Source of the DNA: Pleionea litopenaei
GTDB taxonomy: Bacteria > Pseudomonadota > Gammaproteobacteria > Enterobacterales > Kangiellaceae
Direction of reading: 5' to 3'
Length of the DNA stretch: 64,000 bases
Assembly: GCF_031198435.1 (NCBI RefSeq)
Contig: NZ_CP133548.1
Location: 1,116,001 to 1,180,000, forward strand
This document shows, piece after piece, positions 50,992 through 64,000 of this stretch (position 1 is its first letter; each line of letters starts with the position of its first letter). Below the pieces are notes generated by a model. It was not told where the DNA came from. It worked only from the letters and a program-made list of their open reading frames with translations, and did no database searches. Position numbers and translations under genes: made by a program.

Positions 50992-53148
50992 TCAATGCTT
51001 TTCGGCAAGTTTTTTCCTGTTTTTCAGCACAATATAATCGGCCAATATATTCCCAGACTCTTGCAGTCTAAAATCATCTTCTTCAAAGATCTTCTCGTCG
51101 AAATCTTTCAATGATTCAACTGGCTTCAAGCCTTTGTCAACCAGTCGCTGGTTAATCCGTTTTAAGCGTTTCGCTTTTTGTTCATCAATTTCTTTGCGAC
51201 GCTCAGTCAGACTCAAGGAAATATCTTTATCATCTTTACGAGCTAAATATTCCTCAATATCCTTTTGCAGATAAGAAAACTCTTTGCTTGTCGCGCGACG
51301 CTGCAAGTGGCGTTCGTTGAGAGCGCCAATCACACCTTCAAACCGATTCTCAGGCTTAAATTTGGCTTTCGAAATCGTGTCCCAAGCAAGGGCGTTCTCA
51401 TAACTGCTTTCGCCAAATTCTTCTGGACTAAACGCACTTGGAAACTGAATATCTGGCACAACACCACGGTGTTGAGTCGTCTCTCCAGACACTCGATAAA
51501 ATTTTGACGTAGTCAATTTTAAGTGACCCAGCTGAGAATCTCTGAGTGACCGATAATAATTTAAGTCGATCATGCTCTGCACAGTCCCTTTTCCAAAGGT
51601 TTGTTCACCAATAACGATTCCACGACCATAGTCTTGGATAGCTCCAGCAAAAATCTCTGATGCTGAAGCACTACCACCGTTAACCAATACAGCTAAGGGG
51701 CCGTTATAGACGATACCCGGTTGATTATCGTCGAAAGAAGTCACTTGATTGCGTGAGTCTCGCTGTTGCACCACAGGACCTTGGTCGATAAACAAGCCAG
51801 TCAACTCTACGGCTTCATCTAACGCTCCACCACCGTTATTACGTAAGTCAATGATAAGGCCATCGATATTCTCTTTCTCGAAAGCTTTCAGAAACTTTTC
51901 GACGTCACGGGTTGTGCTTTTGTAGTCATCTAATCGCAACCGGTTTTTTGCATCCCAATCAACATAAAACTTAGGAATCTCGATAACACCAAAGGTTAAC
52001 TGTTGATTATTCATATCGACTTTAATGGTTTCAGACTTTGCCGATAGCTCTTCAAGTTTCACCTGCTCACGCGTTAGGGTAACAACTTTCGTCTCGCCAC
52101 CCACTTCTCCCTTTGGAAGAATTTGCAATCGAACTTTAGAGCCCGCTTCCCCACGAATTAAATCGACAACATCATCCAAACGCCAGCCCACAACATCTTC
52201 AATCGGCTCTTTACCTTGGCCAACACCAACAATCCGATCGCCTTCTTGAATTTGCTTCGATTTCTCTGCTGGCGCTCCTGTTACAAGCTTATTCACTTTG
52301 GTATACACATCATCCATTTGTAAAATAGCGCCAATACCTTCTAGAGAAAGCTTCATTTCAATATCAAAATTCTCGGCTTCACGAGGTGAGAAATACGATG
52401 AATGCGGCTCAACCGTTAAAGCAAAGGCATTCATAAAATATTCAAACACATCTTCGCTTTTGTTTTGTTCAATTCTTCTTTGCGCCATTTTATAACGCTT
52501 AACCAAAATCTCTTTGGTTTCTTCCCAAGATTTATCGGCCAACATCAAGCTTAGGGCTTCCGCTTTGACTCGCTTTCGCCATAGTTCATTCAACTCTTGC
52601 AGTGATGTCGCCCAACCACGATCTTCTCGATCAAAGTGATAAGATTCTTGCTTTTGAAAGTCAAATGGCTTTTCTAACAACTCAATCGCATAGTTGTACC
52701 TTTCTAAAGTTCGAGTTTGAAACACTTGGTACATATCGAATGCAGGCTTCAGTTGACCGCTGATAATGCTGTCGTCGATCAACTTACGATATCGTTGGAA
52801 GGATTGTACGTCGTCGGCATAAAAATAACTTTTATTACCATCTAGAAGCTCGATGTACTTTCCTAAGATTTGCTCAGATAGAGCATCATTACTCTCTAGA
52901 TTGGTTTTCAAATAATGTTCACGAGCAATTAGCAATGCAATCATACGACTGACACTGCTATGAGATGGCAAAGGCATCAAGCTTTCGACAGATGTTGGGG
53001 TATTGAGTAAAGCTTTGTCACGATTGTCTTTGGTAGCGGCTTTGTTCTCGAGAACGCCTTGTCCAAATAGAGCTAATGGAACCGCAACTCCTAGTCCTAC
53101 AATAACGGACTTCATCAACGAATAGCTTTTTTTAGCTTGAAACATCAT
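50992..53148 (-). CDS. prc: Tail-specific (C-terminal processing) protease
   Basis: 718 residues of the S41A family. An N-terminal hydrophobic anchor/signal is followed by a helical domain, a PDZ domain (about 262-345) and the protease domain. The catalytic Ser495 is in NGGSASASEIF and Lys520 in TFGKGTVQ, 25 residues apart as in E. coli Prc. The C-terminal part is highly charged and coiled (RRKEIDEQKAKRLKRIN). It would trim penicillin-binding proteins and degrade periplasmic proteins with nonpolar C-termini. TAGGAAG precedes two ATG codons. Confidence 0.95.
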   Translation of the reverse strand: MMFQAKKSYSLMKSVIVGLGVAVPLALFGQGVLENKAATKDNRDKALLNTPTSVESLMPLPSHSSVSRMIALLIAREHYLKTNLESNDALSEQILGKYIELLDGNKSYFYADDVQSFQRYRKLIDDSIISGQLKPAFDMYQVFQTRTLERYNYAIELLEKPFDFQKQESYHFDREDRGWATSLQELNELWRKRVKAEALSLMLADKSWEETKEILVKRYKMAQRRIEQNKSEDVFEYFMNAFALTVEPHSSYFSPREAENFDIEMKLSLEGIGAILQMDDVYTKVNKLVTGAPAEKSKQIQEGDRIVGVGQGKEPIEDVVGWRLDDVVDLIRGEAGSKVRLQILPKGEVGGETKVVTLTREQVKLEELSAKSETIKVDMNNQQLTFGVIEIPKFYVDWDAKNRLRLDDYKSTTRDVEKFLKAFEKENIDGLIIDLRNNGGGALDEAVELTGLFIDQGPVVQQRDSRNQVTSFDDNQPGIVYNGPLAVLVNGGSASASEIFAGAIQDYGRGIVIGEQTFGKGTVQSMIDLNYYRSLRDSQLGHLKLTTSKFYRVSGETTQHRGVVPDIQFPSAFSPEEFGESSYENALAWDTISKAKFKPENRFEGVIGALNERHLQRRATSKEFSYLQKDIEEYLARKDDKDISLSLTERRKEIDEQKAKRLKRINQRLVDKGLKPVESLKDFDEKIFEEDDFRLQESGNILADYIVLKNRKKLAEKH

Positions 53149-53565
53149 AACTTCCTAGCGTTATTTCATGGATTTTGATTGAGCCAAATTGAACAAAGTT
53201 GGAACAATCGTATCGAACTCACAATGCAATTCTCTTACCTTGCAATTCTCAAACCTTACAAAGGTCAGGCAATGCCTCGCTCGATGCCGAATCGAGCTAA
53301 TCAATGTCAGAGTGCAATTCGGCTTTCGGGCAACCTTAATCGAAACCCAGGTTAGTAAAACCTACGACGGCCGAGCCTGCTTCTAGGCCATGAGACCATT
53401 ATTCAGGTATAAAATTCAACATTAATTAACTATATAGCTTATATATGCCGATTCAAGTCACACATTGCAAGCAAACATTTCACAATTATAGAACATTCGA
53501 ATAGTTTGATAAGCCCGCTAACTTTAAACTATAGTTCTACTAACCTTTTGTTTTTAAGATAAATA
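53149..53565. other. 417-bp intergenic region, nothing recognised
   Basis: This gap between the divergent prc and YiiX-like genes holds the promoters of both but no gene or clear hairpin. GCAATTCTC occurs twice (near 53226 and 53241). The short open frames across it show no coding character. Confidence 0.5.
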
Positions 53566-54375
53566 ATGTTTAAATTTCTCAAACGAGCCATTGAACGATG
53601 GTTGAACAAAGAATCGCCTGCACCAGACTTCCCACAGTCAGATTTCGAGCGACTCAGGTATGGACTGAGACCTGGCGATGTTCTATTAGTTGAGGGACGT
53701 ACGAGAGTTTCTGAGGTCATAAAGCTGATCACCCAGAGCCGCTGGTCACATGCTGCGCTCTACATTGGTCGCTTACATGATATAGAGTCTGAAGACATCC
53801 GCCAAAGGATTCTACAGCACGCTACGTTCGAGCCATCGGAGCAACTCATCATCGAAGGTCTGCTCGGTCAAGGCACTGTGGTCAACAAGCTCAGCGACTA
53901 CCAACGCGACAATTTGCGCATTTGTCGGCCATCGGCCCTTTCGCACGGTGACGCCAAAGAAGTGGTGAACTACGCGAGCCAACATCTTGGTACTCCGTAT
54001 AATTTTCGACAAATGCTCGACCTAGCCCGACTGCTGTTTCCGTGGAGTATTGTGCCTCGCCGATGGCGCTCTTCTTTATTCACTAATAACGTTGGGGAGC
54101 CGACTCGCACGGTTTGCTCGTCAATGCTCGCCGAGGCCTTTGGTCAAGTTAACTACCCTGTACTTCCAAAGTTTAAAAAGGTCGGCAAAGATCGAGTGGA
54201 ATTGATCAAGCGCAATACTAAGCTGTTCACGCCGGCTGACTTTGACTACTCCCCTTATTTCAAGGTTATCAAATTCCCTTTTTGGGGCCAGGTAGATAAT
54301 GCTCACTATCGGGCTTTACCGTGGAATAAAGATGGGTTGATGTCTAACGACGAGGACGACTTTACCATTGGTTAA
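53566..54375 (+). CDS. YiiX/C92-like permuted papain amidase
   Basis: 269 residues with the permuted NlpC/P60 layout: an early LRPGDVLLVEG, the catalytic-type His62 in SRWSHAALYIG, and the nucleophile Cys184 near the other end in RTVCSSMLAEAF. This is the reverse order of classical NlpC/P60, as in YiiX (C92). It would cleave a peptidoglycan or lipid amide. No signal peptide is seen, so it may be cytosolic or anchored through its basic N-terminus. Followed by a terminator. Confidence 0.83.
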   Translation: MFKFLKRAIERWLNKESPAPDFPQSDFERLRYGLRPGDVLLVEGRTRVSEVIKLITQSRWSHAALYIGRLHDIESEDIRQRILQHATFEPSEQLIIEGLLGQGTVVNKLSDYQRDNLRICRPSALSHGDAKEVVNYASQHLGTPYNFRQMLDLARLLFPWSIVPRRWRSSLFTNNVGEPTRTVCSSMLAEAFGQVNYPVLPKFKKVGKDRVELIKRNTKLFTPADFDYSPYFKVIKFPFWGQVDNAHYRALPWNKDGLMSNDEDDFTIG

Positions 54376-54462
54376 ATTTCGAACATTTTTTCTTGAATTC
54401 GGATATTTTTGATCTAGAGTTATTCAGAGGGTCATCGAATTTAGATTCTCCCAATTCCCCTA

Positions 54463-54497
54463 ACCCAGGTTACCTTACGGGCCTGGGTATTTTTTTG
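54463..54497 (+). terminator. Terminator after the YiiX-like gene
   Basis: ACCCAGG (54463-54469) pairs with CCTGGGT (54482-54488), followed by A and a run of T. The 12-base loop could pair further. Confidence 0.7.
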
Positions 54498-54535
54498 TGC
54501 GATAGTCGAGTACCAGTCAACCTACGGCGACCGGC

Positions 54536-57268
54536 TTAAAGATGTGTACGGCGAGAACGTTTAAACGCCATTACCATTAAAATTAATGCGCCCCACACCG
54601 GAACTGAACCACTCGAGCTAGAGTAGCCATTAATCACTTGCACGACGACGGACTCGGTATCGCTTGCACCGTGAACATCGGTCACCGTCACGGTAAAGGT
54701 GAGAGAGCCACCGTTGTCTGGTGCAACAAATGTTGTACTGGCCGAATTAGGTGCGGTCAAGGTTACACTGTCACCTTGAGTCTGTACCCATTGGTAGGTC
54801 AGCGGGTCTTGCTCGAAATCAGACGCGACGGCCGATAATGAAACCGTTTGTCGAGTATTCACTTCAAAATTACTAAGCGACTGTAATTCAGGCGCATTAT
54901 TAGAGTCATCATCTTGTACATAAACATCTATAACCGCATTTTGCCCCACTTCGCTGTTGTTTACGGGTTGCAGAGCCACTCTAAAAATTTCTCTATCTTC
55001 GTCCTCGCTGTCATCAATAATGGGCACCGAAATTTGTTTCGAGGCTAAATCGCCATCAGTCCAAGTTAAACGGCCTTGAACTTCCTCAAAGTCGACACCC
55101 ATCACCGCGGTAATGCCTTGTGATTGATAATCCACCTCAAGTTGGCCATAGGAGCCCCCGACACGGTTAACGGAAATTGTTACGGTTCCAACCGATTCGG
55201 CTACCGATAGCTCCGCATTGGTAAACTCTAACTTTCCGGCTCTTGGAGCTCCGTCTAACATAACTTTTAAGTACGAAATATCACCTAAGGTTGCACCGTT
55301 TCTAGGATCAAACAAACGAATAAAAAACTCTTCATCGGGCTGCATTCCCGTTGTGTCGTCAAGAATCGATAATGCAATGCTTTTCTCTCCAACCTCGCCG
55401 GCAGCCCACTGAAGTTGCCCATCGGCAAGGACAAAATCTTCGTCTTTTTCGGCGTTACCGCTAATCACTTGATAGCTTACCTCAACCGATGAATTATTCG
55501 ATCCCGCACCAGAACGTGCGACAGCAATTTCAACATCTTGATTTCGCGTAAAGCTCACTTCTGACTGAGTAAATCCTAATTGTCCTTGTGTAGAAACCCG
55601 GGTGTTCTCTCGAAGAACGTATAGGCCACTATTGATATCACTGACTAAAATGAGCCCTGAAGGAAGAAATGGATAGGTTCCCCAAGCACCATTGTAAGAA
55701 GCATTATTACTTGCAGGAAAAGTATCAAAAAATCCGACTTCAACCGGACTTGCAGGGTCAGAAATGTCGAGAATCGTTAGGCCTCTCTCATAGTTCGACA
55801 TGTAATAACGATTACCTCGGACAAAACCATTATGATCAACCGCTCTTGTTGGCCCTGTCCACTGGCCCACTTGCACAGGTTGTTGTAAATTATCGATTTG
55901 AAATATACGAACAGTCGAGTTGAGTCCGGCGTTGGCTTCATCGAACTCATCGTGCAAGAATACAAAGCGTTTGTCATCGGATACCCACCCAGAATGCACG
56001 TATTTAGCTCCAGGGGGCACGTCGGTATACGTCGTCACCGACAGTCGTTCTGTTTGGGTTGGATCGGAGATGTCCCATAACACCATTTCTTTTTCGTTAA
56101 AGTCGACGAACACGGTGCATTGTTCAGTCGCATTCACACAGCCATTTGCCACTCGGCCATCGTTCAATGTTACGGACGCGCCATCGTGGGTATATCCATA
56201 AAAACTGCTCTGGTTACTCATTTCACTTAACTGCTCAGGTGCGTCCAATGAGTAAGAATGGAAGGAGCCTGAATAACGATTGGCGCCAATGAGTTGTAAT
56301 CGCGCTACCGTACCATCAAGCTGAGTATTCAATGTGTAATCGACATTGCTTATATAAACGTTATGCGCATCAGAAACAGACGAATCTCTGCGTACCAATG
56401 AAATGGAGTTGGGTAAATTATTTAAATCGATAATGCTAACGCCTTCTGTCGCGTTATCAATGGTCGAATAAGCATAGGCTTGCCATTCGCCAACGGCATC
56501 GTCAAAGTACTGGTAAACCTTGATGTCTCTCCAAGTGGAGTTTTGCCCTGTTATGGTCCCCACTTCCCGTGGTGCTTCAGGATTACTCAGGTCAAAAACA
56601 GCCACGCCATCTCTAACCCCCATAATGGCATACTCATTGCCAGAGTTAAGGTCAACATGTCCCCAAATATCATTTCCGCTGCTGGGTCTGGAAGAAAACT
56701 GTTGCAACGGCACATGAGCGACTAAGTCGATGTTTTGGCAAGGAAATCCGGCAGCCGAGCCACCGTCACAGTTTACCAACACTTGTCTTTGCTCTAATTG
56801 CTCAAGCTGCTTTAACTGACGATTGAGCTTCTCTGAATCGATCCCTTTACCATCGGCAATAACATTGAAGCCTTTCTTTCTTAGCTGCTCGACAAATTTT
56901 CGAGGAACCCCGGTTAGTCGAGTTGGATTGCTGTCTGGACTTTGCGATTGAAAGTGGTCGAAACGATTAAACCCCGCCAGAACGGGTACTATATCACTGG
57001 TTAGATTGAACAGGTCATCGACCCCATTCACTGGGTAACTGCCTGCAGCAACTCGAATATGGTCACCTTTTTTAGCCTGTTGTACGGCATAAGAAATCGA
57101 CTTACAGGGTCGAATAGGATTATCACAACGCCCTAAATCAGTACCTGTTTCCGCCACATAACGCGCTTTATCAGGCTCGGAGTGAGCCATTGCTGCACCA
57201 CTTAGCGACGCTAAGCCAAACAGCAAAATGTAAGGCTTGATATTGGTTATTTTACTCAAAGCCGACAC
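54536..57268 (-). CDS. Choice-of-anchor B surface protein with Calx-beta domains
   Basis: About 910 residues from GTG 57268, which has AAAGGAGAG in front; a TTG frame to 57298 would place that site inside the gene. A signal peptide (about 14-28) is followed by a large LVIVD-repeat beta-propeller domain (DLSNPEAPREVG, DISDPTQTERLS, DISDPASPVEVG) of the choice-of-anchor B type, two Calx-beta domains (about 590-800), an Ig/cadherin-like domain and a C-terminal tail (GSVPVWGALILMVMAFKRSRR) of hydrophobic helix plus basic residues, like a protein-sorting signal. It is divergent from the MbnP-like gene, so shared regulation is possible. Confidence 0.85.
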   Translation of the reverse strand: MSALSKITNIKPYILLFGLASLSGAAMAHSEPDKARYVAETGTDLGRCDNPIRPCKSISYAVQQAKKGDHIRVAAGSYPVNGVDDLFNLTSDIVPVLAGFNRFDHFQSQSPDSNPTRLTGVPRKFVEQLRKKGFNVIADGKGIDSEKLNRQLKQLEQLEQRQVLVNCDGGSAAGFPCQNIDLVAHVPLQQFSSRPSSGNDIWGHVDLNSGNEYAIMGVRDGVAVFDLSNPEAPREVGTITGQNSTWRDIKVYQYFDDAVGEWQAYAYSTIDNATEGVSIIDLNNLPNSISLVRRDSSVSDAHNVYISNVDYTLNTQLDGTVARLQLIGANRYSGSFHSYSLDAPEQLSEMSNQSSFYGYTHDGASVTLNDGRVANGCVNATEQCTVFVDFNEKEMVLWDISDPTQTERLSVTTYTDVPPGAKYVHSGWVSDDKRFVFLHDEFDEANAGLNSTVRIFQIDNLQQPVQVGQWTGPTRAVDHNGFVRGNRYYMSNYERGLTILDISDPASPVEVGFFDTFPASNNASYNGAWGTYPFLPSGLILVSDINSGLYVLRENTRVSTQGQLGFTQSEVSFTRNQDVEIAVARSGAGSNNSSVEVSYQVISGNAEKDEDFVLADGQLQWAAGEVGEKSIALSILDDTTGMQPDEEFFIRLFDPRNGATLGDISYLKVMLDGAPRAGKLEFTNAELSVAESVGTVTISVNRVGGSYGQLEVDYQSQGITAVMGVDFEEVQGRLTWTDGDLASKQISVPIIDDSEDEDREIFRVALQPVNNSEVGQNAVIDVYVQDDDSNNAPELQSLSNFEVNTRQTVSLSAVASDFEQDPLTYQWVQTQGDSVTLTAPNSASTTFVAPDNGGSLTFTVTVTDVHGASDTESVVVQVINGYSSSSGSVPVWGALILMVMAFKRSRRTHL

Positions 57269-57554
57269 TTTAGCTCTCCTTTCCAAGATTGATAACAACG
57301 GTTGCTAAGCAAAACTGAACTCACTGGCGACTATCTTCTACTCAAAGCCTAATTCGGGTAAAAACCAAATTCGAGGTCGTCTTAAATTCCTAAATTCAAG
57401 GCTCAAGCCAGATGCTGCTTCGACGATTTAGATGAGTCTTTATTAATGCAGTATTGAGGCGAACCCAATACAATGCAATTAAAACTGACTTCATCAGCTT
57501 ATCATCAAACAACTATGACTGATTTTAAAGTTAATATTAACAACTAATTACAAT

Positions 57555-57582
57555 AATTGTGATTTCGTTCTAATTCACAATT
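57555..57582. promoter_or_regulatory. Inverted repeat between divergent genes
   Basis: AATTGTGA (57555-57562) and TCACAATT (57575-57582) are perfect complements with a 12-base spacer, 61 bases before the MbnP-like start. TGTGA/TCACA half-sites recall CRP, but the spacer is twice the CRP length of six. It may be an operator for another regulator. The rest of the 375-base gap 57269-57643 is AT-rich without a gene; no short peptide gene like a methanobactin precursor was seen. Confidence 0.5.
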
Positions 57583-57643
57583 AACGGATAATTGAATACA
57601 AATAGAACTTGCCGCTCGAAAATGAAACCGTCAGAATAATCTT

Positions 57644-58420
57644 ATGAAAAATTTGAACATCATCATATTATTAGCAAGCGCTTGCCTGCTCGCTTCTTGC
57701 TCACCATCTACTCAAGACGTCACGGTAAACTGGCAGCTGAATCTGGCGCATGGAACTGATACCTGCCAAACAAACGAACGAAAAAACCAATCGGCTCCAA
57801 CCTCGGTATGGTCTGAAATAGGTTTTTATGCTTATGACTTCAAATTACTCAACGCCCAGAATGAAGCATTTCCTTTGCAGCTAACACAATCACGTGATTT
57901 GATATACGTTGATTTAACCTGCAAGCCTGGCTCATCTAATGAAGAAAGCACACACCAATTTACTTTTACTGGCGCTGTGTCAGGCGCTGACATCCTTGAA
58001 TTTACCATTGGTGTGCCATTTGCAAAAAATCACTTGAATCCTCTACAACAGCAATACCCTCTCAATCAGCCAGCAATGTTTTGGGTTTGGCAAACTGGCC
58101 ACAAATTCTTTCGGCTAGAGGGCACGCAATCTGGCAGAGATGTCTTGTTTCACCTCGGATCAACAGGTTGCGTTTCGGCGTCCGCCCTGCGCCCGCCTGA
58201 AATGCCTTGTCAGCATCCTAACCGAGTTACTGTACAAGTACCGCTAACTGCCTACCAAGGCAACTCTTTGACATTGACACTTGATCCAACAAAGCTGCTT
58301 AAAACGAGTAGTTCTGACTCCAGTATACGCTGTCAGTCTGAGCAAGATAACACGCAATGTCCGGCTCTAATTTCAGCGTTGAAAAATAATATTGAAAGTG
58401 GTGTGTTTACCTTACAATGA
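57644..58420 (+). CDS. MbnP-like copper-binding lipoprotein
   Basis: 258 residues with the lipobox LLASC (Cys19). The mature part matches the 'metallo-mystery pair' four-Cys/MbnP family: FTIGVPFAKNH (120-130), AMFWVWQTGHKFFRLEG (144-160), LFHLGSTGC (168-176), then MPCQHPNR. Six other cysteines are visible (41, 93, 176, 189, 230, 239). In methanotroph MbnP, a tryptophan is turned into kynurenine by MbnH and the product binds copper; Trp30, 56, 147 and 149 are candidates here. It overlaps the next gene by ATGA. Identity is by motif; copper binding is inference. Confidence 0.85.
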   Translation: MKNLNIIILLASACLLASCSPSTQDVTVNWQLNLAHGTDTCQTNERKNQSAPTSVWSEIGFYAYDFKLLNAQNEAFPLQLTQSRDLIYVDLTCKPGSSNEESTHQFTFTGAVSGADILEFTIGVPFAKNHLNPLQQQYPLNQPAMFWVWQTGHKFFRLEGTQSGRDVLFHLGSTGCVSASALRPPEMPCQHPNRVTVQVPLTAYQGNSLTLTLDPTKLLKTSSSDSSIRCQSEQDNTQCPALISALKNNIESGVFTLQ

Positions 58421-59541
58421 AGAGACTTCAGGCACTTTTAATTTCCCTATTGCTCATAGCTCTAATAGCCAGTTGCCATGAAAGTCAACAAGACTATCAA
58501 TGGTCATTACCTGAGGGATTTCCTCGACCAATTGTTCCAGTAGACAATCCCATGACCGAAGCCAAAGTCGAACTGGGTCGGCACCTGTTTTACGACAACG
58601 CATTATCGGCAAATAACACACAGTCTTGCTCAAGTTGCCATCAACAAAGCTATGCGTTTGCTGAGCCGAAAGCTCTGTCAGTTGGAAGTACAGGTCAACA
58701 CCACCGACGAAACGCTCTCGCGCTCGTTAATGTTGCTTACAACAAAACGCTCACTTGGGCACACCCCGGCCTCACCTCTATCGAACAGCAATTATTAATT
58801 CCGATGTTCGGAGAGCAACCGATCGAGTTAGGTATTTCGGGTCATGAAGAAGTGATCTTGAAGCGCTTTACCTCGCCTAAATATGAAAAGTTATTTCTGC
58901 AAGCTTTTGGAGATAAAGAGCCCAGTTTTTTGCGTATCAATCAAGCGTTATCAAGCTTCACTCGGAGCCTTATTTCTATTCAAAGCCCGTTTGACCGATA
59001 CGCTTATCAAAACGACGATCAAGCACTGAGTGAGTCTGCAATCCGCGGTATGAATTTATTTTTTTCCGAAGAGTTCGAGTGTCATCATTGTCATGGTGGT
59101 TTTAACTTTACGCAATCCACCTTTCACCAACAACAAAGACTTGATCGTCGCCCCTTTCATAACACTGGCTTATACAATGTTGAGAGTCACGACCAATACC
59201 CGCAAATCGATACTGGACTCATGGAGCTCACGGGTAATGCAGCCGACAATGGAAAATTTCGAGCGCCGACACTACGTAATATTGAGTTAACCGCTCCATA
59301 TATGCACGATGGAAGTATGTCGACCTTGGCTGAAGTTTTAGACTTCTACGCTGCCGGAGGTCGACACATCAGCTCAGGAGATTATGCTGGCGACGGTAGA
59401 AATAACCAATATAAAAGTCCATTCGTCACAGGGTTTGAAATGTCGGAACAACAAAGAGATGACTTGATCGCATTTTTACAATCATTGACAGACAGTCATT
59501 TTGTGTCAAACCCCAAGCACGCGAATCCTAACCTGCAGTAA
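58417..59541 (+). CDS. MbnH-like di-haem enzyme (cytochrome c peroxidase family)
   Basis: 374 residues, lipoprotein signal (IASC, Cys20), with two c-type haem sites: CSSCH (71-75) and CHHCH (222-226). Other family features are VELGRHLFYD, RRNALALVNVAYN and FRAPTLRNIELTAPYMHDGSMSTLAEVLDFY. The gene sits in a 4-base overlap behind its partner, the classic MbnP-MbnH order. MbnH uses a bis-Fe(IV) state to oxidise a tryptophan of MbnP. Ordinary di-haem peroxidase is the alternative; the MbnP neighbour argues against it. Confidence 0.88.
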   Translation: MKRLQALLISLLLIALIASCHESQQDYQWSLPEGFPRPIVPVDNPMTEAKVELGRHLFYDNALSANNTQSCSSCHQQSYAFAEPKALSVGSTGQHHRRNALALVNVAYNKTLTWAHPGLTSIEQQLLIPMFGEQPIELGISGHEEVILKRFTSPKYEKLFLQAFGDKEPSFLRINQALSSFTRSLISIQSPFDRYAYQNDDQALSESAIRGMNLFFSEEFECHHCHGGFNFTQSTFHQQQRLDRRPFHNTGLYNVESHDQYPQIDTGLMELTGNAADNGKFRAPTLRNIELTAPYMHDGSMSTLAEVLDFYAAGGRHISSGDYAGDGRNNQYKSPFVTGFEMSEQQRDDLIAFLQSLTDSHFVSNPKHANPNLQ

Positions 59542-59645
59542 CTTCTTTCGTAAAGGAAAAGGTATTAATCTGAAAGGCGGTTGCAGTCGTACAACAATCG
59601 CATTAAGCTCATTTTTTCAGCCTATATGAACCCAAGGATAAAAAT

Positions 59646-60617
59646 ATGAAAACCTTAGCGTTAAGCTGTTTACTCACCCTTAGTTTTACCAGCACTTTGC
59701 TGGTCGCAGACAATCACGAACAATCGGTTAAATTCTCAGTTCAAGAAGTTTCCCCGGGAGTTTATATGCTCATGGGCGTGGGTGGCTTTACTGGAGGCAA
59801 TATTGGCCTTTCCATTGGCAATGACGGAGTAGTCATGATCGACGATGCAATGCCAAGTAGCCTAGACATTATGCAAGATGCGATTAAATCAGTCACCAAA
59901 GAGCCTATCGACTTCTTAATCAACACGCATGTTCACGGCGACCATACTGGCAATAATGTTGTCATGAGCAAACAAGGCGCTCGCATCGTTGCGCATGAAA
60001 ACCTAAGAGAGCATTTGAAGAAAAAAGGCATCAAAAACGGCGATAAGATGGAAAAAGCACCAGAAGCCATGCTCCCAGTGATTACCTTTTCAACCTCAAT
60101 GAGTTTTCATCTCAATGGACAAGACGCTCGTCTCACTCACTTACCACACGCCCACACCGATGGCGATGCAGTTATTCATTTTGAGCAAGCGAACGTTATA
60201 CATACTGGCGATGTACTATTTAATGGACTTTTTCCTTTCATCGACGTTAACAGTGGCGGATCGGCTAAAGGCTATTTAAATGCCCAAAAAGCGCTTCTAA
60301 AATTAGCAGACAAGAATACCAAAATCATCCCGGGTCATGGGCCACTCGCGACACGCGCCGACCTTGAACGCTCAGTTGCGATGCTCGAAGACAGCATCAA
60401 AATTATCTCAGCGTTAATTCAACAAGGGAAAACCGAAGAGCAAGTCGTCACGCTCAATCCGCTACAAAAGTATCACAACGACTGGAACTGGGGTTTCATT
60501 ACCACCGAGAGAATGACTCGTCAGCTCTTCCAGAGCTTATCAAGCTCACAACAACACACCGCTCATGCTGATGCTCATACCCAAAAAGATCACAACAACA
60601 AGGGGCATCATCATTAA
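59646..60617 (+). CDS. Exported metallo-beta-lactamase-fold hydrolase with His-rich tail
   Basis: 323 residues with a signal peptide (about 1-21) and the MBL signature HVHGDH (95-100), followed by LPHAHTDGDAVIHF, IHTGDVLFNG and IIPGHGPLA, which supply the remaining zinc ligands. The last 20 residues contain seven histidines, ending GHHH, a likely metal-binding tail. The 'quinoprotein relay' type of this fold is also common in the periplasm. It is third in the MbnP-MbnH cluster with AAGGA in front. Substrate unknown; zinc or copper handling is inference. Confidence 0.87.
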   Translation: MKTLALSCLLTLSFTSTLLVADNHEQSVKFSVQEVSPGVYMLMGVGGFTGGNIGLSIGNDGVVMIDDAMPSSLDIMQDAIKSVTKEPIDFLINTHVHGDHTGNNVVMSKQGARIVAHENLREHLKKKGIKNGDKMEKAPEAMLPVITFSTSMSFHLNGQDARLTHLPHAHTDGDAVIHFEQANVIHTGDVLFNGLFPFIDVNSGGSAKGYLNAQKALLKLADKNTKIIPGHGPLATRADLERSVAMLEDSIKIISALIQQGKTEEQVVTLNPLQKYHNDWNWGFITTERMTRQLFQSLSSSQQHTAHADAHTQKDHNNKGHHH

Positions 60618-60670
60618 ATAAAATAATCCATTGCATCTCCCTCATCGTATCAATGGTGAGGGGGACACTT

Positions 60671-61549
60671 ATGACTATAAAATCACTTTTAATAACATCT
60701 CTAATTTGCACTCACCTTTCACTTCATGCCGACAGTAACACTGACTTCGCAGGTAGTGGTAAACTCAATTTAACCGGCTTAATACCCAATATTGACGGCG
60801 TCGCTGGCGCGGGAATCAGCCACTCAGCGATCATCGGAGGTTACGGCACCGAGGACCAAATAGGTGCTGCGGGAAACTTCTCCCAGGTACAACTCAGTGA
60901 CTTTAAACTCTCAACACAATCCGTCTTAGTAGGCTTTTACAATCGTATCGAACTGTCTCACTCCAAAAGCGAGTTCGATACACAGGACGTTGGCGCGCAA
61001 CTTGGTCTGGGTGAAGGCTATACGTTTAAAAACCAGACCACCTCGTTAAAGCTCAGATTGATGGGCGATGCGATTTTGGATCAAGACAGCTGGCTCCCAC
61101 AGATAGCAATAGGTTATTCGGAAAAATCCAGTGATAATGCCGCTGTACTCAACTTAATTGGTAGCCAATCCGACGACGATTCAGAAGTTTTTGTCAGTGC
61201 TTCAAAACTATTCTTAAGTCAATCATTACTGTTAAATTTAAATCTACGTAATACTCGCGCTAATCAAAACGGAATTCTGGGATTCGGCGGCGATAAAGAG
61301 TCGAAAAAGGAATGGCTGTTCGAGGGTTCTCTGGCGTATCTACTGAACGATAATTTAGCACTCGGCTACGAGTATAAAGCAAGTCCTGACAACCTAAGCT
61401 TTGCTAAACAAGAAGACTGGCAAGATCTCTTTCTTTTGTATAACCCCAGTAAGCATGTGAGCTTAACGGTCGCCTACGTTTCTCTGGGCGAGATAGCGCT
61501 GCAACCCGATCAAACTGGTTACTATGCCAGTATCTCAATTCAGTTTTAG
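60671..61549 (+). CDS. DUF3034 family outer-membrane-like protein
   Basis: About 292 residues from ATG 60671, which has GAGGGGG in front; an earlier ATG at 60653 places that site inside the gene. After a signal peptide (SLLITSLICTHLSLHA) the sequence follows DUF3034: KLNLTGLIPNIDGVAGAGISH, AIIGGYGTEDQIGA, VGFYNRIELSHSKSEFDT, LGLGEGY, KLRLMGDAILDQDSWLPQIAIG. Alternating beta strands and a final Phe (SISIQF) suggest an outer-membrane barrel. DUF3034 has no assigned function. It is 53 bases downstream of the MBL gene. Confidence 0.88.
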   Translation: MTIKSLLITSLICTHLSLHADSNTDFAGSGKLNLTGLIPNIDGVAGAGISHSAIIGGYGTEDQIGAAGNFSQVQLSDFKLSTQSVLVGFYNRIELSHSKSEFDTQDVGAQLGLGEGYTFKNQTTSLKLRLMGDAILDQDSWLPQIAIGYSEKSSDNAAVLNLIGSQSDDDSEVFVSASKLFLSQSLLLNLNLRNTRANQNGILGFGGDKESKKEWLFEGSLAYLLNDNLALGYEYKASPDNLSFAKQEDWQDLFLLYNPSKHVSLTVAYVSLGEIALQPDQTGYYASISIQF

Positions 61550-61558
61550 GGGAGTCTT

Positions 61559-61981
61559 ATGAAACCTATATCAACCACAATTCAACTATTAATTCTAGTA
61601 TTCGCAGTTTCAACTCAACCTTTATTTGCAAGTGATGACTTTAAAGCCTTTGGAGGAAAAGAGGGCCTCACCACTATTGTCGATACTGCGTTCGAACATA
61701 TTTTAAACGATCAAAGAATCAATTCGTTTTTCCAAGAAACTGATAACGAATTTATCAAGGAACAACTGGTCCTACAGTTTTGTGACGTGCTTGACGGCCC
61801 ATGTAAGTATGATGGCGCTTCAATGAAGGATTCTCACGTTGGACTTAATATCAAACGTGAACACTTCAATGCTCTTGTTGAAGCCGTCAGAAAGAGTATG
61901 CACACTCATAATGTACCGTTTGCTAGCCAAAATCGCTTTTTAGCAAAACTTGCACCAATGCACGCGGATATTATCGAATAG
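61559..61981 (+). CDS. Exported group I truncated haemoglobin
   Basis: 140 residues: signal peptide (about 1-24, ending LFA) and a trHb1 globin. It shows GGKEGLTTIVDTAFEHILND, INSFF, and DGASMKDSHVGLNI with the proximal His93 by comparison with HbN. Two Cys (75, 82) are in the middle part. Globins are usually cytosolic, so a secreted form is unusual; it could bind NO or oxygen beside the di-haem enzyme. It follows the DUF3034 gene after 9 bases and ends the cluster before a hairpin. Confidence 0.85.
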   Translation: MKPISTTIQLLILVFAVSTQPLFASDDFKAFGGKEGLTTIVDTAFEHILNDQRINSFFQETDNEFIKEQLVLQFCDVLDGPCKYDGASMKDSHVGLNIKREHFNALVEAVRKSMHTHNVPFASQNRFLAKLAPMHADIIE

Positions 61982-62033
61982 CTTTGTAGAATAACTTTTC
62001 CTAATAACCCTATCTAATAACCCTAACTTCGCT

Positions 62034-62066
62034 CTTCTACGCTGGGAGTCACGCCCAGCTTAGAAG
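62034..62066. terminator. Hairpin between convergent genes
   Basis: CTTCTACGCTGGG (62034-62046) pairs with CCCAGCTTAGAAG (62054-62066) with one mismatch. It overlaps the end of the minus-strand cupredoxin gene and lies 50 bases after the haemoglobin stop, so it may end both transcripts. Confidence 0.6.
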
Positions 62067-62698
62067 AAAGTGATGGTACCTATTTCACGCCCTTCTTCAG
62101 TGATCTTGTGAACACCCTTTGAATAGTCAATCGGATCCACATTTCGATACGGCAATGCAAGATAAATCACCTCGGGCTTCTTCGCGTACTCGATAGAAAA
62201 TGGATAATCAACCGGAGCGACTTTAAAAGGAACTTTCGGGTTATTATTATTGAAGACCAATGCGTCATATTCGTTACTGGGAATCGATATTACATAAGAA
62301 ATCATCGTTGAATGTATAAAACAGCCCACTCTGGCAATGTGCTCCGTTGGCCAATCAACTTGATATTCGCGGCTCTCATTACGTCTCAAAATACCTGTGT
62401 TAAGTTTGAAGTCTGTCTGCAAATTATTAATAAACACATTGTGTCGACTGCGATCACTGTTTTTTATTGTCACTTTTGATCCAGGCTGAGTGACATAGAC
62501 GGGTTCATGAAAAATTCTTTGTGTTTGATCAATTATTAGGGACTTTGGTGAGAAGGATTCAGGTTTCAAGTAAATCACTCCCACGTCCACCTTAACACTA
62601 TCGGCTAGCGTCAATTGACCTTTAAGTTCACTGGCTGAACTTATCAATGAGGTGGTTAAAAGAACAAATACGCTCGCAATCTTAATTTTTATCAACAT
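62060..62698 (-). CDS. Exported cupredoxin-like protein
   Basis: 212 residues, signal peptide (about 1-21, ending SSA). Type 1 copper ligands can be followed: His86 in SRHNVFI, then Cys126, His129 and Met132 in GCFIHSTMISYV, the arrangement of MauL-like and plastocyanin-like proteins. The remainder (IPSNEYDALVFNNNNPKVPFKVAPVDYPF) is not catalytic. It faces the MbnP/MbnH cluster from the other strand, and would carry electrons or copper in the periplasm. AAAGGAG precedes the ATG. Copper binding is inferred from the ligands. Confidence 0.82.
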   Translation of the reverse strand: MLIKIKIASVFVLLTTSLISSASELKGQLTLADSVKVDVGVIYLKPESFSPKSLIIDQTQRIFHEPVYVTQPGSKVTIKNSDRSRHNVFINNLQTDFKLNTGILRRNESREYQVDWPTEHIARVGCFIHSTMISYVISIPSNEYDALVFNNNNPKVPFKVAPVDYPFSIEYAKKPEVIYLALPYRNVDPIDYSKGVHKITEEGREIGTITFF

Positions 62699-62748
62699 AG
62701 AATCTCCTTTGAACTCTTCCTTTGTACGCGGAAATTCTTAGGTTAGAT

Positions 62749-62777
62749 AAAAAAGCCCTCATTGAGAGGGCTTTTTT
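62749..62777 (-). terminator. Terminator after phhA
   Basis: AAAAAAGCCCTC (62749-62760) pairs with GAGGGCTTTTTT (62766-62777), a perfect 12-bp stem with a 5-base loop, eight bases beyond the phhA stop. Confidence 0.92.
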
Positions 62778-62784
62778 GGACATC

Positions 62785-63585
62785 TTAGCTTGCTAGCTTG
62801 TCTTCTTTCGGTGGATAGGTAGGCTCAAATAACCCAAGCTGCTTCGCTTCTTTCACATGAGCCATGATATCCATATTAGCAATTTCAAATAATTGCTTCA
62901 TTCCATCAATCGTGTAGTAAATCGGCTGCATAATGTCGATACGATAAGGAGTTCGCAGCACCGTCATAATATCAAACGGGCGATGTTCTGGTTCATCAGT
63001 CAAGGCATACTGCGACTCGCCAATCGACGATAAAATTCCGCCACCATAAATACGACGGCCATTCGGTGTATTCATTAAGCCGAATTCAACGGTAAACCAA
63101 TATAAACGCGCCAACCATACGTGATACTCTTTCTCAGCTTGATCACCCAGTTTGCCGTAAGTGTGAGTAAACTCGGCAAAATACGGATTGGTCAACAACG
63201 CGCAATGTCCGAAAATTTCATGAAAAACATCGGGCTCCTGCAAATAGTCCATCTCTTCACGAGTACGAATAAACGTCGCACACGGGAATTTCTTATTCGC
63301 TAACAAGTTAAAGAATTTAGTGAATGGAATCAGTGCCGGAACCCAGGCAACTTCCCAACCAGTTGTTTTACGTAAAACTTGATTAACGTCTTCTAACTGT
63401 GGAATCTTGTCCGCCGTGATGCCTAGCTTCTCGATACCTTCCATGTACTCATCGCAAGCACGACCTTGAATAATCTCCATTTGGCGCTCGAAGAGCTCAC
63501 CCCAAACTGCGTGTTCGTCTTGAGTATAGTGGATAAAGCCATTTTCATCTGCTTCTCGGGCCGTGTATTTTGTACCCTTTGCCAT
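62785..63585 (-). CDS. phhA: Phenylalanine 4-monooxygenase
   Basis: 266 residues from ATG 63585; a TTG two codons earlier has a better-spaced AGAGG and cannot be excluded. The iron ligands of aromatic amino acid hydroxylases are seen as the two His of DVFHEIFGH and the Glu of YWFTVEFGL, with EIFGHCALLTNPYFAEF and FDIMTVLRTPYRIDIMQP. It makes tyrosine from phenylalanine with a pterin cofactor. No phhB (pterin carbinolamine dehydratase) gene is next to it. Own terminator. Confidence 0.95.
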   Translation of the reverse strand: MAKGTKYTAREADENGFIHYTQDEHAVWGELFERQMEIIQGRACDEYMEGIEKLGITADKIPQLEDVNQVLRKTTGWEVAWVPALIPFTKFFNLLANKKFPCATFIRTREEMDYLQEPDVFHEIFGHCALLTNPYFAEFTHTYGKLGDQAEKEYHVWLARLYWFTVEFGLMNTPNGRRIYGGGILSSIGESQYALTDEPEHRPFDIMTVLRTPYRIDIMQPIYYTIDGMKQLFEIANMDIMAHVKEAKQLGLFEPTYPPKEDKLAS

Positions 63586-63744
63586 AAACAAATAAACCTC
63601 TTATCTGTACTCTGTGTGTTCAATGTCGAAACGATCGTAGGATCTATATCGAACCATTTATATTTTTCTTTAGCGCTGATTATCTCGCGTTTCATTCAGC
63701 AGACGCAAGTTAAGTCGGTATTTCTACCCGCTTAACTGCTCTGA

Positions 63745-64000
63745 TCAGTTGCCAGATTTCATCGCTTCTAACTCTTCCCATCGGTCCAATTGTTGCTCAA
63801 GCTGTTGCTGTAAAACGGCTAGTTGCTCAAAATGCGCTTGCATCTCCGTTGGTGCTTTTGACTGAAATTCAGCGGAAGCAGCCTGTATCTCTAGGTCTGA
63901 AATGTCTGTTTCAAGCCGCTCCAACAATGCTGGCAGCGCATCGAGCTCTCTTTGGAACTTATACGATAGTTTAACCGCCGCGGTCTTTTTAGGACTTTCT
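63745..64000 (-). CDS. uup: ABC-F ATPase Uup-like, C-terminal end (partial)
   Basis: Only the last 84 codons are in the window; the reading frame is open to the right edge. The tail KKTAAVKLSYKFQRELDALP followed by LLERLETDISDLE, then a Gln/Glu-rich coiled coil ending RWEELEAMKSGN, fits the C-terminal DNA/ribosome-binding extension of Uup, a two-ATPase-domain ABC-F protein. The call rests on this coiled coil alone. Confidence 0.7.
   Translation of the reverse strand, partial: ESPKKTAAVKLSYKFQRELDALPALLERLETDISDLEIQAASAEFQSKAPTEMQAHFEQLAVLQQQLEQQLDRWEELEAMKSGN

Follow-up and report, generated by a model that had tools for sequence, protein, structure and literature searches.

The locus described here raises the question of whether a run of genes for apparently exported metal and haem proteins forms one copper/redox system or a meeting of several. 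It lies in a 64,000-nucleotide stretch of the Pleionea litopenaei genome (NZ_CP133548.1, positions 1,116,001 to 1,180,000; hereafter the window), where genes for an MbnP-family lipoprotein and an MbnH-family di-haem enzyme are followed by genes for a metallo-β-lactamase (MBL)-fold protein, a DUF3034 protein and a truncated haemoglobin, with a cupredoxin-like gene on the other strand. A first-pass annotation had read all of these as a single cluster headed by MbnP. The stretch that it described ended short of the gene on the far side of mbnP, which encodes a choice-of-anchor B family protein (TIGR04312, 444.9 bits against a cut-off of 100), a putative β-propeller that we call the propeller for short. 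Two conserved modules, each independent of the other, probably adjoin here: module A, the known MbnP/MbnH pair with the propeller as its partner, and a separate module B made up of the DUF3034, haemoglobin and cupredoxin-like genes. We draw this division because module B is missing from the site in three of five genomes of the genus and forms part of an operon of its own elsewhere.

In all five genomes of the genus set (the window and loci L016, L017, L018 and L020; L029 and L016 are one contig), the gene order runs C92-type peptidase, choice-of-anchor B, MbnP, MbnH, MBL and phenylalanine hydroxylase, with the choice-of-anchor B gene always on the strand opposite to mbnP and the MBL gene always adjoining mbnH. 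The block of DUF3034, globin and cupredoxin genes stands between the MBL and phenylalanine hydroxylase genes in the window and L017. These two flanking genes are separated by under 100 bases in L016 and L018 and by about 260 bases in L020, whose genome (G002) carries the block at another site (L062), with no MbnP or MbnH match within the 18 kb read. Outside the genus, tblastn detected neither the MBL gene nor the block beside mbnH in the loci read. Of the synteny that the first-pass annotation had proposed as a check, the MBL gene therefore stood within the genus and the block did not, and the idea of one cluster headed by MbnP fell with the lack of conservation of its named neighbours beyond the genus. 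The proposed cluster is a juxtaposition of modules, in which module B stands beside module A in only part of the genus.

The neighbour that persists more widely is the propeller gene. MbnH-bearing genomes made up 14 of 61 in a sample of relatives, 11 of 240 in a class sample (over the curated cut-off) and 29 of 295 in an order sample (threshold E 1e-105, with 28 of the 29 over the cut-off); the window genome is in all three samples. The order set comprised 33 loci including the window; L028, in which a contig end leaves just a fragment of mbnH, was set aside, so that 32 were informative. A choice-of-anchor B gene was present at 24 of the 32, as a propeller gene at 23 and as the start of one at a contig end in L044; in L052 it lies about 6 kb from mbnP. 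It is present in the loci from Rheinheimera (L030) and Colwellia (L032), and was not found in the 2.2 kb covered upstream in a Myxococcales contig (L031). Adjacency of propeller and pair is kept over four families (f1, f6, f7 and f16), while most other neighbours change. In the order sample, choice-of-anchor B occurs in 21 of the 29 genomes with MbnH versus 25 of the 266 without it (Fisher p 2e-13, uncorrected for kinship), and in all 21 genomes with both the propeller is beside the pair or at most about 6 kb away, in one case (G330) split over two contigs. Seventeen of these 25 genomes with the propeller but no MbnH belong to a single genus (g5), in which the open frames span 605-874 residues versus 880-991 next to MbnH.

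Two side observations concern individual loci. In G330, mbnH lies directly beside the start of the propeller gene with no mbnP between (L044), and mbnP is found with a complete propeller gene on another contig (L081); a stretch of 49-50 bases is common to the contig ends, and the arrangement is possibly a duplication or a misassembly. A family of about 375-420 residues occurs near MbnH in five loci that have no propeller gene (L025:10306-11451, L036:8388-9638, L050:7921-9045, L051 and L054); in scans the L025 protein had no match and the L036 protein had a weak porin match.

The propeller sequences themselves point to a lineage associated with MbnH. A tree of 38 propeller domains groups those linked to MbnH into a single clade (support 100/100; 28 rows, 26 of them linked). 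Across the 38-row alignment, His312, His371, His435 and His489 are invariant, as are the acidic positions 450, 451, 453 and 454, and His214, Trp272, His449 and Trp480 are completely or almost completely conserved within the MbnH-linked clade and rare elsewhere. His and Trp account for 4 of the 10 clade-specific positions (hypergeometric p 0.015, uncorrected for descent; the outgroup excluded L071 and L073, two highly divergent rows). MAFFT alignment of seven repeats brought His214, His312, His371, His435 and His489 into one column. Because the repeats were cut by hand, several of them to begin near a His, and profile-profile comparisons among them were mostly weak, we infer rather than observe a His ring on the propeller axis. 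The C-termini of most relatives, read by eye, consist of a Gly/Ser stretch, a hydrophobic segment and then Arg or Lys, which we take to be an anchor of the GlyGly-CTERM type.

The other two members of module A are an ordinary, known pair. The lipoprotein matches TIGR04052 with 151.6 bits (curated cut-off 140) and Pfam MbnP with 101.1 bits, and aligns with PDB chain 7l6g, a solved MbnP-family protein named 'metallo-mystery pair' protein, at E 1.4e-11. The di-haem enzyme scores 517.8 bits against TIGR04039 (curated cut-off 362.85), matches the di-haem enzyme PDB 6e1c at E 5.9e-103 and carries the haem motifs CSSCH and CHHCH. Its N-terminus also has a lipobox-like LIASC, so that MbnH, like MbnP, resembles a lipoprotein. 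MbnP residues Trp147 and Trp149 (a WxW motif), His130 and Met145 align with 7l6g. In an alignment of 44 MbnP rows (the window and the fetched loci), both tryptophans are present in every row and the putative ligands His130 and Met145 in 41 and 40, respectively; the MbnP of the genus relative L016 lacks the Met145 equivalent. MbnP is merely 32-38% identical to its relatives within the genus. The His, the Met and the first Trp of WxW, once oxidized to kynurenine, presumably form a copper site as in the MbnP structure. By analogy with the family, MbnH would oxidize Trp147 to kynurenine and thereby create a Cu(I) site, and MbnP may store, sense or hand on copper at the cell envelope.

No MbnB-type gene was found in the genome, although no search was aimed at a short MbnA precursor. 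The one DUF692 match, about 178 kb away, was considered as a methanobactin-like maturase and rejected as being of the HvfB type (39.4 bits against the MbnB model, cut-off 325). At L138:5182-7374 (contig C1, ~994-996 kb), genes of the HvfB and HvfC families follow a 162-residue open reading frame in which GKCGEGKCGEG is repeated; this locus is probably a metal-binding ribosomally synthesized and post-translationally modified peptide system unrelated to methanobactin. The first-pass annotation had suggested that the pair, with no methanobactin precursor nearby and a new set of partners, would be a new setting for the chemistry. According to PMC3621798, MbnP/MbnH pairs lacking a methanobactin operon are already known, and such a pair is therefore not new in itself.

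Module B is best understood from its relatives elsewhere. The order sample contained 30 DUF3034 matches in 27 genomes, and 29 loci were read, omitting a short, stop-bearing match in G525. A globin gene accompanies DUF3034 at all 29, a cupredoxin gene at 28 (none was detected in L097) and a GGDEF/EAL enzyme at 26; 25 loci have all four genes, which we call the four-gene operon (cupredoxin, dCache-GGDEF-EAL cyclic di-GMP (c-di-GMP) enzyme, DUF3034 and exported globin). Three of the enzymes were scanned and had dCache_3, GGDEF and EAL domains. The enzyme is missing from the window, L017 and L062, whose sequences are mutually closest (58-65% identity for the globin, 47-62% for the cupredoxin). The window copy is thus not among the complete operons, lacking the c-di-GMP enzyme; the same genome has a complete version at L065:5772-10087 (contig C1, ~551-555 kb), and a second DUF3034 copy elsewhere in it scores higher than that of the window. 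In the class sample, DUF3034 was found in 13 of 240 genomes; among 12 new loci, seven have both globin and cupredoxin, L120 has a neighbour of 868 residues as well as a cupredoxin, and L124-L127, with divergent DUF3034, have neither globin nor cupredoxin. Matches with an in-frame stop (G134:C54 and G525:C4) are possible pseudogenes or assembly errors, and the GGDEF/EAL match at L116 (G134) is in pieces.

The window globin (PF01152, 45.6 bits, cut-off 21) has PDB relatives of group 1. The proximal His and two Cys are present in all 36 aligned globins, and the position of HbN Tyr B10 is occupied in 35 of them by Ile, Leu, Val or Phe; a lipobox-like motif occurs in 26 of the 36 but not in the globin of the window. 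The cupredoxin-like protein of the window had no Pfam, curated-family or PDB sequence match, but H, C, H and M of the ligand pattern H...C-x2-H-x2-M are each present in all 35 aligned rows, window included; its relative L067 reached 18.1 bits against Cupredoxin_1, under the cut-off of 27. The DUF3034 protein may, as a guess, be an outer-membrane barrel. Overall, a haem protein, probably exported, and a blue-copper-like protein are conserved together with a c-di-GMP enzyme. The four-gene operon could therefore couple c-di-GMP to a gas or redox stimulus at the envelope; module B is a second, stripped copy of it, most likely sensing or relaying a redox or gas signal there. A search of Creative Commons-licensed papers returned nothing on the four-gene operon or on GGDEF and EAL domains in connection with a group 1 truncated haemoglobin.

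Coordinates of the features of the locus are collected in the table; export is predicted from N-termini read by eye. At the level of single genes the first-pass annotation was largely accurate. Both members of the pair pass their curated cut-offs and their genes overlap by four bases (ATGA, the stop of mbnP and the start of mbnH), the DUF3034 and haemoglobin genes are where it placed them, and the gene that it called a cupredoxin bears the type-1 copper ligand pattern. Its exported MBL-fold protein with a His-rich tail is likewise borne out, with HxHxDH present and 7 His among the last 25 residues; four of the five genus genomes have 4 to 7 His there. The MBL protein was also tried as a quinoprotein relay metallohydrolase (TIGR04559) and rejected (114.4 bits, cut-off 280).

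Features of the locus, in window positions
Feature	Position	Strand	Evidence
Permuted papain-like C92 peptidase gene	53566..54375	.	Family match; beside the unit in 5/5 genus genomes
Choice-of-anchor B family protein (LVIVD repeats, Calx-beta, PKD-like domain, anchor-like C-terminal tail)	54536..57298	-	TIGR04312, LVIVD, Calx-beta and PKD-like matches
Divergent intergenic region between propeller gene and mbnP	57299..57643	.	Gene layout
MbnP-family copper-binding lipoprotein (predicted)	57644..58420	+	TIGR04052; PDB 7l6g; 44-row conservation
MbnH-family di-haem enzyme, lipobox-like N-terminus	58417..59541	+	TIGR04039; PDB 6e1c
MBL-fold protein, predicted exported, His-rich tail	59646..60617	+	PF00753, 72.5 bits
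DUF3034 protein, first gene of module B	60653..61549	+	PF11231, 286.5 bits
Group-1-like truncated haemoglobin, predicted exported, module B	61559..61981	+	PF01152
Cupredoxin-like protein, type-1 copper ligand pattern, module B, convergent to globin gene	62060..62698	-	Alignment

An Rfam scan of 53000-64000 gave nothing at gathering scores. Promoter-like sites (12, shuffle mean 10.8) and terminator-like sites (7, shuffle mean 4.8) were close to their shuffle means and were therefore not used. In the divergent region, a palindrome resembling GTTGAATATTCAC was picked by eye in some f1 loci as a candidate operator. Because only 5 of 25 regions fit with at most two mismatches (against a mean of 0.8 and a maximum of 3 over 30 background resamplings) and the best match in the window has four mismatches, it is not claimed as an operator, and none common to all 25 propeller/mbnP intergenic regions was found. 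An AT-rich palindrome resembling GTTGAATATTYAC was noted between the two genes in several f1 loci (the window, 57530 region, and L019, L020, L021, L023 and L024), with only 5 of the 25 regions fitting it.

The two-module reading has to be weighed against several alternatives. That MbnP/MbnH, MBL, DUF3034, haemoglobin and cupredoxin act together as one exported copper/redox system is very improbable in our judgement. All of the genes do look exported, their metal or haem motifs are kept, L017 has the identical order, and the short gaps between the MBL and DUF3034 genes (35 bases) and between the DUF3034 and globin genes (9 bases) would permit co-transcription of an order kept in two of the five genus genomes, which weighs against the division. 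The one-system view is nevertheless hard to reconcile with a block that is missing here from most of the genus, stands elsewhere in G002, was not detected beside the pair in the loci read outside the genus and belongs to a separate operon elsewhere. Other points weigh against the propeller as partner. Eight of the 32 order loci have no propeller (L025, L027, L050, L051, L054, L059, L060 and L061), upstream coverage exceeding 7 kb at all of them; outside the order it is present at none of nine informative loci (L033-L042, ten in number, L039 being uninformative because of its 563 bases upstream); and L075 and L076, which belong to the linked clade, have no MbnP/MbnH match nearby. We conclude that the partnership is not obligatory. 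The same propeller-less loci favour the view that MbnP/MbnH alone carry out envelope copper homeostasis and that the propeller merely shares their promoter region. We consider this rather unlikely, as it sits poorly with an adjacency kept over four families amid changing neighbours and with the single clade of linked propellers.

It is also rather unlikely that MbnP and MbnH are maturation and metallation partners of the propeller, itself a copper enzyme, by analogy with the methanethiol oxidase operon. The four invariant His of the propeller with a fifth in the MbnH-linked clade, their common column in the hand-cut repeat alignment and the His/Trp share of the clade-specific residues are consistent with this, as is the joining of a Cu-dependent SBP56 protein, SCO1 and a MauG homologue in the mtoX operon, as described in PMC5739008. 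Opposed to it are the occurrence of the propeller without MbnH, the lack of detectable homology to SBP56 and the low confidence of the models. AlphaFold2 models of 529- and 360-residue stretches, built from four rows, have mean predicted local distance difference test values of 45.6 and 49.4, and this low confidence also weighs against the two-module reading. Foldseek with the 360-residue model gave no match at E <=0.001; many of the 50 matches listed are, we presume, propellers, and among them entry 2ece of SBP56, a family with a propeller fold, ranks fourth and the phosphotriesterase 5hrm sixth. These comparisons hint only weakly at a propeller fold. The 38-row profile found nothing convincing among PDB sequences (best E 0.12, 5hrm), and homology to SBP56 was rejected, hhalign giving a probability of 4% with a 7-row SBP56 alignment. 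A bolder form, which we regard as unlikely, would have the pair in this order serve a dedicated client, a surface, lipid-anchored His-ring β-propeller copper enzyme that MbnP loads with copper, with MbnH making the kynurenine site of MbnP and perhaps oxidizing a clade-specific propeller Trp too, so that the MtoX-SCO1-MauG principle would have arisen a second time, without relation to the first. Under the preferred reading, the propeller would be the usual surface partner of MbnP/MbnH in this order, and most likely a metalloprotein with its His ring at the channel.

Comparison with known systems places these findings as follows. The pair agrees with the MbnP/MbnH family (TIGR04052/TIGR04039) in cut-offs passed, adjacent genes and the WxW motif with putative His/Met ligands; it differs from the pairs of methanobactin operons in having no MbnB-type maturase but a divergent choice-of-anchor B gene. 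PMC3621798, PMC3912023 and PMC3423442 describe a comparable kynurenine-copper protein in CorA/CorB and MopE of methanotrophs, CorA having a di-haem peroxidase partner, CorB. The literature search found no paper on 'choice-of-anchor B' or 'metallo-mystery pair', and a published MbnP neighbourhood analysis could already list the propeller; among the matches listed, nothing further was on point besides PMC3621798. Like mtoX-SCO1-mauG (PMC5739008), the locus encodes a protein with several conserved His together with a MauG-like di-haem enzyme, but here MbnP takes the place of SCO1, for which eight neighbouring proteins scanned had no match, and no homology was detected. An arrangement reminiscent of mtoX-mauG does occur at G163:C51 54-57 kb, G116:C86 1.5-4.6 kb and G111:C63 12-20 kb, where SBP56-family genes and di-haem genes scoring under the MbnH cut-off are no more than about 4.2 kb apart; the G163 protein scores 729.9 bits as a methanethiol oxidase (cut-off 650). 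The propeller and the four-gene operon are the parts worth following: the latter reveals that a c-di-GMP enzyme is conserved together with a blue-copper-like protein and a haemoglobin that is probably exported, and the former gives pairs outside methanobactin operons a concrete candidate partner. That partner resembles the choice-of-anchor B family (TIGR04312) in its score and anchor-like tail, and its MbnH-linked clade is set apart from the family by the four His and Trp residues at positions 214, 272, 449 and 480.

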